Below are positions 51,275 to 59,224 of a DNA stretch of 64,000 nt, in pieces. The notes below the pieces were generated by a model. That model was given only the letters and a program-made list of their open reading frames with translations, did not search any database and had not been told where the DNA came from. Source of the DNA: Oxalicibacterium solurbis (GTDB taxonomy: Bacteria; Pseudomonadota; Gammaproteobacteria; Burkholderiales; Burkholderiaceae_D); the NCBI RefSeq assembly GCF_014635845.1, contig NZ_BMDP01000002.1:310001-374000 (forward strand), given 5' to 3'. A program made the translations under genes and the position numbers. Positions within the stretch are counted from its first letter, which is position 1; each line of letters begins with the position of its first letter.

Positions 51275-53257
51275 ATGTCCGACATCGAGAGTTTCAAGCA
51301 GGAGCAGCGCGTTTTTGATCCGCCTGCCGATTTCGTCGCCAACGCGGCTATCAGCGGCATGGACGCTTATCGCGCAATGTGCGCGGAAGCGGAAGAAGAT
51401 TATGAAGGTTTCTGGGCACGTCTGGCCCAGCAGAATATTCAATGGACCAAGCCGTTCACCAAGCGGCTCGATGCGTCCAACGCACCGTTCTACAAATGGT
51501 TCGAGGACGGCGAACTGAACGTCGCCACCAATTGCCTGGATCGCCACCTGACCAACGGCAATGCCGACAAGACCGCGCTGATCTTCGAATCCGACGATGC
51601 CAAGGTCAGCAGCGTCACGTATCGTGAACTGTACGAGCGTGTCTGCAAGTTTGCCAACGGCTTGAAATCGCTCGGTGTGCAGAAGGGCGATCGCGTCGTC
51701 ATCTACATGCCGATGTCCATCGAAGGCATTTCCGCGATGCTGGCCTGCGCGCGCATCGGTGCCACGCACTCGGTCGTGTTCGGCGGCTTCTCCGCTAAAT
51801 CGCTGCAGGAACGCATCATCGATGCCGGTGCAGTTGCCGTGCTGACTGCCGATTACCAGGTGCGCGGCGGCCGCCAGTTGCCGTTGAAGGCTATTGTCGA
51901 CGAAGCGCTCGACATGGGCGGTTGCGACACAATCCGCAAGGTCATCGTCTATCAGCGTACGGGCGCGGACGTCAATTTCAACAAAGACCGCGATCTGTGG
52001 CTGCACGATCTGGTGGACGGACAGAAGGCCGAATGCGAACCGGTGCCGGTCGGTGCCGAGCATCCGCTGTTCATCCTCTACACGTCCGGTTCCACCGGCA
52101 AGCCGAAGGGTGTGCAGCATTCGTCCGGCGGTTATCTGTTGTGGTCGATGCTGACGATGAAATGGTCGTTCGACATCAAGCCGGAAGACATCTACTGGTG
52201 CACCGCCGATATCGGCTGGATCACCGGCCATACCTACGTAACCTATGGTCCGCTTGCTTGCGGCGCCACGCAGATCGTCTTCGAAGGTGTGCCGACTTAT
52301 CCAAACGCCGGCCGTTTCTGGGACATGGTGCAGCGTCACAAGATCAGCATCTTCTACACCGCACCGACTGCAATCCGTTCGCTGATCAAGGCATCCGAAG
52401 CCGATCCGAAAACGCATCCGCGCGAATACGATCTCTCCAGCCTGCGCCTGCTCGGCTCCGTCGGCGAACCGATCAATCCGGAAGCCTGGATGTGGTACTA
52501 CAAGAACGTCGGCGGCGAACGCTGCCCGATAGCTGATACCTTCTGGCAGACAGAAACCGGTGGTCACGTCATCACACCGCTACCGGGCGCGACGCCGATG
52601 GTGCCGGGCTCCTGTACGTTGCCGCTGCCGGGTATTGCCGCAGCGGTCGTCGATGATGCCGGCCACGATCTGCCGAACGGCAAGGGCGGCCTGCTCGTCA
52701 TCAAGAAGCCGTGGCCATCGATGATCCGCAATATCTGGAACGATCCGGAACGCTTCACGAAGAGTTACTTCCCGCAGGAACTGGGCGGCACCACGTATCT
52801 GGCCGGCGACGGCGCGATCCGCAACGAGGAAACCGGCTACTTCACTATCACCGGCCGTATCGATGACGTGCTCAACATCTCCGGTCACCGTTTGGGTACA
52901 GCCGAGATCGAATCCGCACTCGTCGCCAACCCGATCGTGGCCGAAGCCGCCGTCGTCGGCAAGCCGGACGACACCACCGGCGAATCGATCTGCGCCTTCG
53001 TGGTCCTCAAGCGTACCCGCCCGGAAGGTGACGATGCCAAGGCCATTGCGAAGGAACTGCGCGAATGGGTCGCCAAGGAAATCAGCCCGATCGCACGCCC
53101 GCGTGAAATTCGTTTCGGCGATAACTTGCCGAAGACTCGCTCCGGCAAGATCATGCGCCGGCTGTTGCGTGTGATCGCGAAGGACGAGGAAATCACGCAG
53201 GATATTTCCACGCTGGAGAATCCGGCGATTCTGGAGCAGCTCAAGCAGGCGCAATAA
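51275..53257 (+). CDS. acs: acetyl-CoA synthetase
   Basis: This 660-residue AMP-forming enzyme activates acetate to acetyl-CoA. Motifs: P-loop [14 protein letters not shown] near residue 270, [34 protein letters not shown], and [11 protein letters not shown] with Lys625 as the conserved, normally acetylation-controlled lysine. Length is standard. The ATG at 51275 has CGGAGGAGA upstream. A strong terminator follows. The phased GTAAG repeats upstream suggest tight transcriptional control. No actP or regulator gene is adjacent. Confidence 0.97.
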
Positions 53258-53304
53258 GCGCGACAAGGCGAACCAATACAGCGAATTTAGTAAAGCCTGT
53301 TCAG

Positions 53305-53336
53305 AAAAAGCCGCCGTTCGATACGGCGGCTTTTTT
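53305..53336 (+). terminator. terminator of acs
   Basis: AAAAAGCCGCCGT (53305-53317) pairs with ACGGCGGCTTTTT (53323-53335), followed by T residues, 47 bases after the acs stop. Confidence 0.93.
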
Positions 53337-53366
53337 ATTGGTCATTGGCGTTGTGTGATAACCGGG

Positions 53367-53395
53367 TTGGGATGGCGTTAGATTTTCGTTATAAT
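53367..53395 (+). promoter_or_regulatory. promoter upstream of the tRNA-Ser remnant
   Basis: TTGGGA (53367-53372) and TATAAT (53390-53395) are spaced by 17 bases. The -10 and the following 40 bases resemble the leader of the intact tRNA-Ser gene (55008-55049). Confidence 0.7.
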
Positions 53396-53432
53396 TCTCG
53401 ACTTCGCCGTATTCATCGGTGAATCCGAATCA

Positions 53433-53486
53433 GGAAAGACGGATGTCGTAGGTAATCGCCTATCGGTATGCATCCTCCCTCCATCA
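53433..53486 (+). pseudogene. degenerate tRNA-Ser copy (deleted anticodon region)
   Basis: From TATAAT onward this stretch aligns with the intact tRNA-Ser(GGA) locus: shared CTTCGCC, ATCGG, CCGAATCAGG and GGATG in the leader and acceptor/D-arm start, then TAGGTAATCGCCTATCGG against the variable arm TAGGTTCATAGCCTATCGG, and a decayed T arm ending CCTCCCTCCATCA. About 37 bases covering most of the D arm and the whole anticodon arm are missing, so it cannot decode. Promoter and a downstream terminator remain, so a transcript of about 110 bases is possible. It is either a dead duplicate or a tRNA-derived small RNA. Confidence 0.65.
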
Positions 53487-53488
53487 AG

Positions 53489-53516
53489 AAAGGCCTCCAA
53501 TTGGGGAGGCCTTTTT
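53489..53516 (+). terminator. terminator after the tRNA-Ser remnant
   Basis: AAAGGCCTCC (53489-53498) pairs with GGAGGCCTTT (53505-53514) followed by further T residues, 69 bases before the gdhA start. Confidence 0.88.
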
Positions 53517-53584
53517 CACTTTTAAAACGATAATGTTTTGGGCGAGCTGCGTTTCGCACCATTTATCAAGAGCAAGGAAGGTCA

Positions 53585-54931
53585 ATGATGAAATATCAGC
53601 AGCCACAACAATTTCTGGATACCGTTGTCGCGCGCAATCCGGGGCAACCGGAATTCCTGCAGGCGGTCGGCGAAGTGATCGGAAGCGTCTGGTCCTACAT
53701 CGAGCAACATCCGCAATATGCGGAACATGGTTTGCTCGATCGTCTGGTGGAGCCGGAGCGCGTGATCATGTTCCGCGTGTCGTGGGTGGACGACCATGGT
53801 GAAGTGCAGGTGAATCGCGGCTACCGCATTCAGCATAATTCGGCGATCGGTCCGTACAAGGGCGGCATTCGTTTTCATCCATCGGTGAACTTGTCGATCC
53901 TGAAATTCCTGGGCTTCGAACAGACATTCAAGAATTCCCTGACGACGCTACCGATGGGCGGCGGCAAGGGCGGTGCCGACTTCGATCCGAAAGGCAAGAG
54001 CCCGGGTGAGGTCATGCGTTTTTGCCAGGCATTCATCAGCGAACTGTTTCGCCATATCGGCTCGGATACCGACATCCCTGCCGGCGATATCGGCGTGGGC
54101 CGTCGCGAAGTCGGCTATATGGCCGGCATGATGAAAAAACTGTCGAATCGTTCCGATTGCGTGTTTACCGGCAAAGGCCTGAGCTTTGGCGGCTCGCTAA
54201 TCCGTCCTGAAGCCACCGGATACGGTACCGTCTACTTTGCCGAGGAAATGCTGAAGAAAACCGGCCGCTCGCTGCAAGGCATGCGTGTCTCCGTTTCAGG
54301 TTCGGGCAATGTTGCACAATATGCGGTCGAAAAAGCCATACAACTGGGCGCCAAGGTCGTTACCGTTTCCGATTCGAGCGGCACGGTCGTGGACGAAGAC
54401 GGCTTTTCGCCGGAAAAACTGGCAATCCTGATGGAAGTGAAAAACCATCTCTATGGTCGCGTGAACCAGTATGCCGAACGCGTCGGTGCCAAATTCGTTG
54501 CAGGCGCCAATCCCTGGCACGTGCCTGTGGAGGTGGCGCTGCCATGCGCGACTCAGAACGAATTGCATGGCGAGGATGCGAAAACGCTGATCAAGAATGG
54601 TGTCATCTGCGTCGCGGAAGGCGCGAACATGCCTTCTACCATAGAAGCCGTCGAAGCCTTCGAACATGCCGGCGTTCTGTATGCGCCGGGGAAGGCCAGC
54701 AACGCCGGCGGCGTCGCCACTTCCGGCCTGGAGATGACGCAGAATGCGATGCGTCTGTCGTGGACGCGCGAAGAAGTGGATGCCCGTCTGCTGGAAATCA
54801 TGCAGGGCATTCATCGTTCCTGCGTTGAATACGGTACCGATGCTTCGGGGCGTGTGAATTATGTCAACGGTGCCAATATCGCTGGCTTCGTCAAGGTGGC
54901 GGATGCCATGCTGGCGCAAGGCGTTATTTGA
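53585..54931 (+). CDS. gdhA: glutamate dehydrogenase (hexameric, NADP-type)
   Basis: This 448-residue enzyme interconverts 2-oxoglutarate plus ammonia and glutamate. Motifs: GPYKGGIRFHPSVNLSILKF, PMGGGKGGADFDPKGKS with the catalytic Lys, DIPAGDIGVGRREVGYM, and the nucleotide fold GMRVSVSGSGNVAQYA. The length and N-terminus (about 50 residues before the core) are those of GdhA-type hexamers, usually NADP-specific. It lies between the tRNA-Ser remnant and the intact tRNA-Ser. The start is ATG 53585, with AAGGAAGG upstream; the next codon is also ATG. Confidence 0.96.
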   Translation: MMKYQQPQQFLDTVVARNPGQPEFLQAVGEVIGSVWSYIEQHPQYAEHGLLDRLVEPERVIMFRVSWVDDHGEVQVNRGYRIQHNSAIGPYKGGIRFHPSVNLSILKFLGFEQTFKNSLTTLPMGGGKGGADFDPKGKSPGEVMRFCQAFISELFRHIGSDTDIPAGDIGVGRREVGYMAGMMKKLSNRSDCVFTGKGLSFGGSLIRPEATGYGTVYFAEEMLKKTGRSLQGMRVSVSGSGNVAQYAVEKAIQLGAKVVTVSDSSGTVVDEDGFSPEKLAILMEVKNHLYGRVNQYAERVGAKFVAGANPWHVPVEVALPCATQNELHGEDAKTLIKNGVICVAEGANMPSTIEAVEAFEHAGVLYAPGKASNAGGVATSGLEMTQNAMRLSWTREEVDARLLEIMQGIHRSCVEYGTDASGRVNYVNGANIAGFVKVADAMLAQGVI

Positions 54932-54984
54932 GGATGGGCTTTCTTGTCTCTTTGCAGGGAAATTTCGTATTTTGCCAAGCGGGT

Positions 54985-55013
54985 TTAGCGTTTCTCTAAA
55001 CTTTTGCTATAAT
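54985..55013 (+). promoter_or_regulatory. promoter of tRNA-Ser
   Basis: TATAAT at 55008-55013 lies 37 bases before the tRNA; a weak -35 (TTAGCG, 54985-54990) is 17 bases upstream. Confidence 0.65.
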
Positions 55014-55049
55014 CCACGGCTTCGCCAAATCCATCGGCGAACCGAATCA

Positions 55050-55140
55050 GGAGAGATGGATGAGTGGTTTAAGTCGCACGCCTGGAAAGCGTGTATAGGT
55101 TCATAGCCTATCGGGGGTTCGAATCCCCCTCTCTCCGCCA
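55050..55140 (+). tRNA. tRNA-Ser (GGA)
   Basis: A 91-base class II tRNA: acceptor GGAGAGA/TCTCTCC, anticodon stem CACGC/GCGTG with loop CTGGAAA (anticodon GGA), a long variable arm (ATAGG/CCTAT), T arm GGGGGTTCGAATCCCCC, and encoded CCA. Its own promoter and terminator are visible. Confidence 0.97.
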
Positions 55141-55147
55141 GAAATGC

Positions 55148-55172
55148 AAAAGCCCGCAATGTGCGGGCTTTT
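55148..55172 (+). terminator. terminator of tRNA-Ser
   Basis: AAAAGCCCGCA (55148-55158) pairs perfectly with TGCGGGCTTTT (55162-55172), followed by more T residues. Confidence 0.93.
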
Positions 55173-55288
55173 TGTTTTGTGTGGACGTTCCGACGTTCCG
55201 ATGTGGCGATAGGGTCAATTACGAATCGGCTTCTGATCGGTCATCATTTAAATCGATGAGACATGCGCGAGCGATGACCGGATTTCAG

Positions 55289-55552
55289 TTAACGACGGCG
55301 ATAGCCGCCGGTCGATGGAGCGGGGCCGCGTTTTTCGATATGACGGAAGGTAACGCGCCCTTTGCTGAGATCGTACGGGGACATTTCGATAGAGACTTTG
55401 TCTCCGGCGAGGATGCGGATATGATTTTTCTTCATCTTGCCGGATGTGTAGGCAATCAGTTGATGTCCGTTTTCGAGATTGACGCGAAAACGCGAGTCGG
55501 GCAGTACTTCAGCGACAAGCCCCATCATTTCAAGCATTTCTTCTTTGGCCAT
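55289..55552 (-). CDS. infA: translation initiation factor IF-1, C-terminally extended type
   Basis: This 87-residue OB-fold protein matches IF-1 ([64 protein letters not shown]). It binds the 30S A site during initiation. Canonical IF-1 is 72 residues; here a basic tail ([15 protein letters not shown]) adds about 15. Many betaproteobacteria carry such a second infA away from the ribosomal operon, and the isolated location fits that. The start at 55552 is the Met before AKEE. Confidence 0.92.
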
Positions 55553-55934
55553 GGCGTTTCCCAATGTTGGATACTGCATCTGTGGTCAGTGTCGGGCCGG
55601 TTTGCAAACCGTTCCTTCCGTCGACGTTAAAGCAGAATGCAGATAATGTTTAAAACCTTGCCCGACTTGAAAACACAGGCATGGCGCGAGGATGGCCACG
55701 TATCAGCGCGTTAGCTGCGCCGGATGGTGCGGAAACAAACTACAGGCGGTCGGCAGACGAGATGCGAGTAATGTGTGCCGAATAAGTGGAGAAACCGGAT
55801 CCTGCAATTCCGATTCTAGTGACGAAAGCATTTACTGTCAGTCCGACACTATACCAGAGTTGGTGGATGCTTGTTTCAGCCGGTGCCACCAATGCTTCGC
55901 GATCCGATAAATATCCTCAGGGCATGCGGGAAAG
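55553..55934. other. intergenic region, no convincing gene
   Basis: These 382 bases separate infA from the DUF1488-like gene. Possible frames lack ribosome sites and recognisable products. No RNA gene is seen. Confidence 0.45.
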
Positions 55935-57790: not shown

Positions 57791-59224
57791 TTAGCTCCTC
57801 TGCGAAAGGGAATGTGCGCCGGGTTTGGCGGCAGCAGCGGCGGATAGCGGACGCATCTGCTGTTGATGCTGGCCGGGGCCGCCGCCTTCCGGCTCGTCGC
57901 TTTCATTCGGTCTGGGGCCGACGCGCACCAGACGCATCAGGTAACCGATGCCGGTACCGAAGACGGCGAAATAGACGATGACGAACAGCACCAGCGTCAG
58001 GCCGAGCTGATCGGCGCTGTGGCGCGATACCGAATCGGCTGTGCGCAATACGCCGTAGACAGTCCATGGTTGTCGCCCGATCTCGGTCGTGTACCAGCCG
58101 GCGAGGATGGCGATCAGGCCCGCTGGCCCCATCAGCACCGCGCAACGCAAGAACGTGCGGTTGCGCCACAAACTGCCACGCCGATACAGGAGCATGCCGA
58201 TGATGCCGAGCAGGATCATGCAAATGCCCAGGCCGACCATGACACGGAAGGTCCAGAATACGATGGTCGAATTGGGGCGATCTTCTTTGGCGAAATCCTT
58301 CAGACCGGGAATTTCACCATCCCATTCGTGAGCCAGAATCAGGCCGCCGAGCCGCGGTATTTCGATGGCGAAGCGCGTTTCTTCACGCTGCATGTCGGGC
58401 AGGCCGAACAGAATCAGCGATGTGCCGGGATGGCCATCGTCTTGCCAGTGGCCTTCGATCGCGGCAATCTTGGCCGGCTGATGTTTCAGCGTGTTGAGGC
58501 CGTGGGCATCGCCGATGATTGCCTGTATCGGCGCGACGATGGCGATCATCAGCAAGCCCATGACGACCATTTTTCGAATGGCCGGATTATCGTTGCCGCG
58601 CAGCAGATGCCAGGCACCCGATGCGACGACGAACAGTGCGGTCGCAAGAAAAGCGGCGACGCTCATGTGCATCAGGCGATACGGAAACGATGGATTGAAG
58701 ATGACCTGCAGCCAGTCGGTCGGCACGACGCGGCCGTCGACGATGTCGTAGCCTTGCGGCGTGTGCATCCAGCTGTTCGACGCGATGATCCAGGTAGTGG
58801 AAATCAAGGTGCCGACGGCGACGGCGGCGGTTGAGAAGAAGTGCAGTTTTTCGCCGACGCGGTGCCAGCCGAACAGCATCACGCCGAGAAAACCTGCTTC
58901 GAGAAAGAAAGCCGTCAGTACCTCATATGCGAGCAACGGCCCGGTGATCGAGCCGGCAAAGTCGGAAAAATAGCTCCAGTTGGTGCCGAACTGATAAGCC
59001 ATCACGATGCCGGATACGACCCCCATGCCGAAGTTGACCGCGAAGATTTGTAACCAGAAGTGATAGAGATCGCGATACACCTGGTTGCGCGTGCGCAGCC
59101 AGCATGCTTCCAGTACGGTCAGATAGCTCGCCAGCCCGATCGTGATGGCGGGAAAGATGATGTGGAAAGAAATGGTGAATCCGAACTGGATTCGTGCAAG
59201 CTCAAGAGCAGACAGGCCGAACAT
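57791..59224 (-). CDS. cydA: cytochrome bd-type quinol oxidase subunit I
   Basis: This 477-residue protein has about nine membrane spans and binds haems b558, b595 and d. It opens LSALELARIQFGFTISFHIIFPAITIG with the haem-ligand His, and has GRQPWTVYGVLRTADSVS, the conserved Q-loop-end signature. The length is short compared with E. coli CydA (522), implying a short Q-loop as in cyanide-insensitive CioA. It ends in a Gly/Gln/Pro-rich cytoplasmic tail. It heads the operon cydA-cydB-DUF2474; no FNR/ArcA box is obvious upstream. Confidence 0.94.
   Translation of the reverse strand: MFGLSALELARIQFGFTISFHIIFPAITIGLASYLTVLEACWLRTRNQVYRDLYHFWLQIFAVNFGMGVVSGIVMAYQFGTNWSYFSDFAGSITGPLLAYEVLTAFFLEAGFLGVMLFGWHRVGEKLHFFSTAAVAVGTLISTTWIIASNSWMHTPQGYDIVDGRVVPTDWLQVIFNPSFPYRLMHMSVAAFLATALFVVASGAWHLLRGNDNPAIRKMVVMGLLMIAIVAPIQAIIGDAHGLNTLKHQPAKIAAIEGHWQDDGHPGTSLILFGLPDMQREETRFAIEIPRLGGLILAHEWDGEIPGLKDFAKEDRPNSTIVFWTFRVMVGLGICMILLGIIGMLLYRRGSLWRNRTFLRCAVLMGPAGLIAILAGWYTTEIGRQPWTVYGVLRTADSVSRHSADQLGLTLVLFVIVYFAVFGTGIGYLMRLVRVGPRPNESDEPEGGGPGQHQQQMRPLSAAAAAKPGAHSLSQRS

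Follow-up and report, generated by a model that had tools for sequence, protein, structure and literature searches.

Between acs and gdhA, the window (the whole stretch of 64,000 nucleotides analysed here) contains a degenerate second copy of the gene for tRNA-Ser(GGA). On alignment, positions 53390-53490 (copy A) are a degenerate duplicate of the intact tRNA-Ser(GGA) gene and its leader at 55008-55140 (copy B). Copy A is most probably a tRNA-Ser(GGA) pseudogene left by a duplication around gdhA, of which the upstream copy has since decayed; we put the probability of this reading at about 85%. We regard it as ordinary genomic debris of a known sort, and none of the tests gave evidence for a working function. 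The acs gene ends at 53257 and is followed by copy A, gdhA and copy B, with the following features:

53305-53335, plus strand: intrinsic terminator of acs (AAAAGCCGCC..GGCGGCTTTTTT), which in the ancestor bordered the tRNA-Ser slot on its left

53367-53395, plus strand: promoter-like site of copy A, TTGGGA-17-TATAAT, with 10 of 12 consensus matches

53396-53432, plus strand: degenerate tRNA-Ser 5' leader, aligned with the leader of copy B

53433-53486, plus strand: degenerate tRNA-Ser body, 54 nt as against 91, from the covariance match and an explicit alignment

53487-53516, plus strand: terminator-like hairpin after copy A (AAAGGCCTCC..GGAGGCCTTT), 12 pairs and a U tract

53585-54931, plus strand: gdhA, glutamate dehydrogenase (Pfam ELFV_dehydrog, 1.3e-90), between the two tRNA copies

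55005-55049, plus strand: extended -10 promoter (TGCTATAAT) and hairpin leader of the intact tRNA-Ser, conserved in 11 congeners

55050-55140, plus strand: intact tRNA-Ser(GGA), copy B (ARAGORN; Rfam RF00005, 56 bits)

55148-55172, plus strand: terminator of copy B, a terminator-like site

The preliminary description of this DNA had aligned 53390-53486 with the tRNA-Ser(GGA) gene and its leader, and the alignment was borne out. Compared locally with the tRNA-Ser(GGA) region, 53367-53530 scores 55.2, whereas control pieces from the same window reach a mean of 17.0 (standard deviation 2.7) and a maximum of 25.2. The leader (53396-53432, score 43.3) and the body (53433-53491, score 56.2) are each significant when taken separately, neither score being reached by any of 2000 shuffles or by any window piece; the similarity between the two copies is therefore not that of a generic promoter, which was the objection that the preliminary description had itself raised. 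When its first 13 bases are removed the body still scores 42.2, a value reached by 4 of 2000 shuffles and by no window piece. Homology to copy B is not significant upstream of the -10 box (89 of 2000 shuffles reach the score) or for the last 26 bases taken alone (288 of 2000).

A covariance model of leader and tRNA-Ser(GGA) was built from 12 genomes, with copy B among the training rows and copy A left out. In the 64 kb it matches 53391-53490 across model positions 1-141 with 26.6 bits (E 7e-5), so that the covariance scan suggested earlier for this site returned a full-length match; copy B, itself a training row, scores 155.6 bits over the same positions. Of the further matches of the model in this whole genome and in other congeners, many are probably other tRNAs whose variable arm is long. 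At copy A itself ARAGORN calls no tRNA, and no Rfam family matches at gathering score. Matches of copy A to hairpin-rich families below the gathering score, seen at a low Rfam threshold, were taken as chance.

The explicit alignment of the body with the tRNA comprises 54 aligned bases, 44 of them identical and 10 substituted, and 37 of the 91 bases are missing. Of the arms, those of the D loop and the anticodon are gone and the T arm is reduced; the variable arm and the acceptor strands are retained. Two of the seven acceptor stem pairs are broken and five kept, and the CCA end is changed. Among the 12 intact tRNA-Ser(GGA) genes the body is nearly invariant. The deficit of about 37 bases and the loss of the anticodon arm had been noted before and both stand; the losses do not form one block but are spread over several places, in the D and anticodon arms and in parts of the T arm.

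The genus was taken as Herminiimonas, since a 300-base stretch of the gdhA of G005 (L162) is identical in L065, Herminiimonas contaminans. The ancestral gene order was read from the 11 congeners that yielded acs at top score. All 11 have a single intact tRNA-Ser(GGA) about 100 bases past acs and after a terminator. The terminator-like site AAAAGCCGCC..GGCGGCTTTTTT of the present genome aligns with the acs to tRNA-Ser spacers of these congeners, and by this alignment the slot behind the acs terminator is occupied here by copy A. An order of acs, tRNA-Ser in the congeners and of acs, copy A, gdhA, copy B in the present genome implies a duplication bracketing gdhA in this lineage, and the earlier proposal of a dead duplicate from such an event is thereby supported. 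The leaders carry further information: letters CGCC..CATCGG are common to copies A and B and missing from the congeners, and the edit distance from copy A is 8 to copy B, 13 to G006 and 16-19 to the others. As the two copies share these private letters and copy A is nearest to copy B, both most likely arose in this lineage; copy B is as near to G006 (distance 7) as to copy A, and the leader, with 45 bases, is insufficient for dating the duplication. Copy A is known from one genome, by which alone its species is represented in the comparison.

The ancestor would have carried a lone tRNA-Ser(GGA) gene behind acs. From this state we infer two possible routes, a tandem duplication of the tRNA gene with later arrival of gdhA between the copies, or integration of gdhA-bearing DNA at the tRNA gene by homologous recombination. 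By either route an intact copy B would have freed copy A from selection; drift of copy A and the loss of some 37 of its bases, those of the D and anticodon arms among them, would have followed. Homologues of gdhA with 81-82% identity are found elsewhere in the genomes of three congeners (G003, G009 and G010); other congeners have a more distant gdhA.

To judge from the gene content next to it, the tRNA-Ser(GGA) gene behind acs is apparently a hotspot of insertion in Herminiimonas. The DNA past this gene differs among nearly all congeners (loci L114-L124), and beside it G002 has a complete tyrosine integrase, while remnants of integrase genes are present there in G012 and G003. After copy B, an infA-like gene and cydA have weaker matches in the congeners, none of them at this position, and both look acquired by this comparison. 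Genomic islands at tRNA genes as a rule keep the tRNA intact and duplicate its 3' end. The present locus resembles such sites in that a repeated tRNA sequence brackets a gene not placed there in the congeners, at a hotspot; it is unlike them in that the repeat consists of the leader and the 5' part of the tRNA, and in that no integrase was recognised nearby in the translations of neighbouring frames, which were read by eye and in some cases searched with Pfam. A second copy of the tRNA 3' end is absent from the window, which has one only. A genomic island with integrase and 3'-end repeat was accordingly rejected as a model for the locus. Copy A shows that a tRNA-flanked insertion hotspot can leave behind a decayed tRNA copy that is overlooked by annotation tools. 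We found no paper on the tRNA-Ser locus of Herminiimonas.

With respect to the signals around copy A, the promoter TTGGGA-17-TATAAT reported earlier is present at 53367-53395, but only its -10 box (TATAAT) is clearly inherited from the tRNA gene. The -35-like hexamer has no significant homology to the region upstream of the tRNA gene in a shuffle test, and the TG of the extended -10 is lost: TGC in copy B and 11 congeners has become CGT, TGCTATAAT being replaced by CGTTATAAT. The site at 53367-53395 is the sole promoter called within 53200-55400, where 1.4 would be expected by chance. The leader hairpin of copy A is retained at 53403-53423 (-8.8 kcal/mol), with one of the leader substitutions relative to copy B falling in its stem and leaving a G-U pair; this retention would be no more than a short divergence explains. 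The hairpin and T run described downstream are likewise real (53487-53516, -19.8 kcal/mol, z -3.7). Because the sequence of this hairpin is unlike the tRNA terminator of copy B and of most congeners, the view that it is a retained terminator is unsupported. A similar GGCCTCC hairpin after the tRNA-Ser of G003 was taken as coincidence, and homology to a tRNA terminator was not seen. The hairpin was missed by the terminator pattern scan, probably since its T run is absorbed into the stem. The whole unit of copy A folds at -49.7 kcal/mol (z -5.4), mostly owing to this last hairpin. Transcription of copy A is possible on these signals, and the candidate transcript, unable to decode, may be about 115 nt in length (about 53402 to 53516).

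Could copy A be a tRNA gene on its way to becoming a new regulatory unit, making either a small RNA or a leader of gdhA? The decoding arms would have been lost, the promoter and leader hairpin kept and a new terminator gained. The fold of the 54-nt body is somewhat more stable than those of its shuffles (z -2.55, reached by 2 of 200), and this folding, the surviving promoter-like site and the strong hairpin count against pure decay, as decaying sequence need not show them. We nevertheless consider such a unit unlikely. An influence on gdhA or a tRNA-derived small RNA, both raised in the preliminary description, received no positive support, and the conservation check that it had proposed came out negative: the unit is absent from all 12 other congeners, was not found in a search of 40 relatives, and occurs in none of the 393 other genomes among the 394 family genomes searched (source included), a 21-base match in G070 apart. 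Were it an independent small RNA, copy A would run from the old tRNA promoter to the hairpin at 53487-53516 and act either in trans or as a decoy of proteins that bind tRNA. The promoter-like site, the succession of leader, body and terminator-like hairpins with the folding energy given above, and a precedent in Bacillus cereus (PMC3399842) speak in favour of this; restriction to one genome, loss of the extended -10, the absence of any Rfam family at gathering score and a promoter count no higher than chance make it very unlikely.

An action on gdhA in cis, with the old tRNA promoter reading into gdhA and the hairpin at 53487-53516 serving as a leaky terminator or attenuator in its 5' leader, is distinctly improbable as well. 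It would account for the position of the promoter of copy A: no other sigma-70-like site was called upstream of gdhA, and this one lies in the same direction 190 nt before the start codon; gdhA may, however, own a promoter of another type, since simple consensus scans miss such promoters. Upstream of the 35 other gdhA loci searched there is neither a comparable unit nor similarity to that of copy A, neither an alternative pairing nor a leader peptide came to light, and copy A pairs with the leader of gdhA no better than shuffled sequence does (154 of 500 shuffles are as good). It is also conceivable that the two copies share just a promoter-leader module and that 53433-53486 is unrelated to the tRNA. 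In its favour, the match is best in the leader, and the last 26 bases taken by themselves fall short of significance. It is contradicted by the body, whose score no shuffle out of 2000 reaches and only 4 of 2000 reach once its first 13 bases are removed, and by the acceptor strand, the variable arm, the 3' acceptor strand and the CA end, which fit the order and spacing of the model over 1-141. We hold it to be extremely improbable. The pseudogene reading stands against all of these. If copy A were expressed, one would have here a recent example of a tRNA gene in transition to something new.

A published survey covers tRNA pseudogenes throughout cellular life (PMC9858662), and copy A is like the bacterial ones in that it, too, is homologous to a tRNA gene and can give no decoding tRNA. 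The nearest functional precedent is tRNA-Other of Bacillus cereus. This pseudo-tRNA, which lies beside an island and has a Trp anticodon, is part of a longer, iron-regulated regulatory RNA, has a deletion phenotype, and is also present in some other Bacilli (PMC3399842). Both are pseudo-tRNAs beside acquired DNA and outside translation; copy A differs in having no anticodon and no D arm, in being restricted to one genome, and in being known from sequence alone.

Downstream of gdhA, no terminator was called between 54931 and 55148. As gdhA thus has no recognisable terminator before copy B, its transcripts may enter the tRNA-Ser gene, and the terminator at 55148-55172 probably also ends this predicted read-through. 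The infA-like gene mentioned above (55289-55579, minus strand) is a second gene for IF-1, with 54% identity over 71 residues to the standard infA of the genus and no closer match in 12 congeners. The cydA gene (57791-59224) has a 72% identical match in one congener only. In the precursor of the intact tRNA-Ser(GGA), a 5' leader hairpin lies between promoter and tRNA (55014-55049 in the window) and is conserved in 12 of 12 genomes, with a stem of TTCGC..GCGAA and a loop that varies in length and sequence; its role is perhaps in processing or stability of the precursor.
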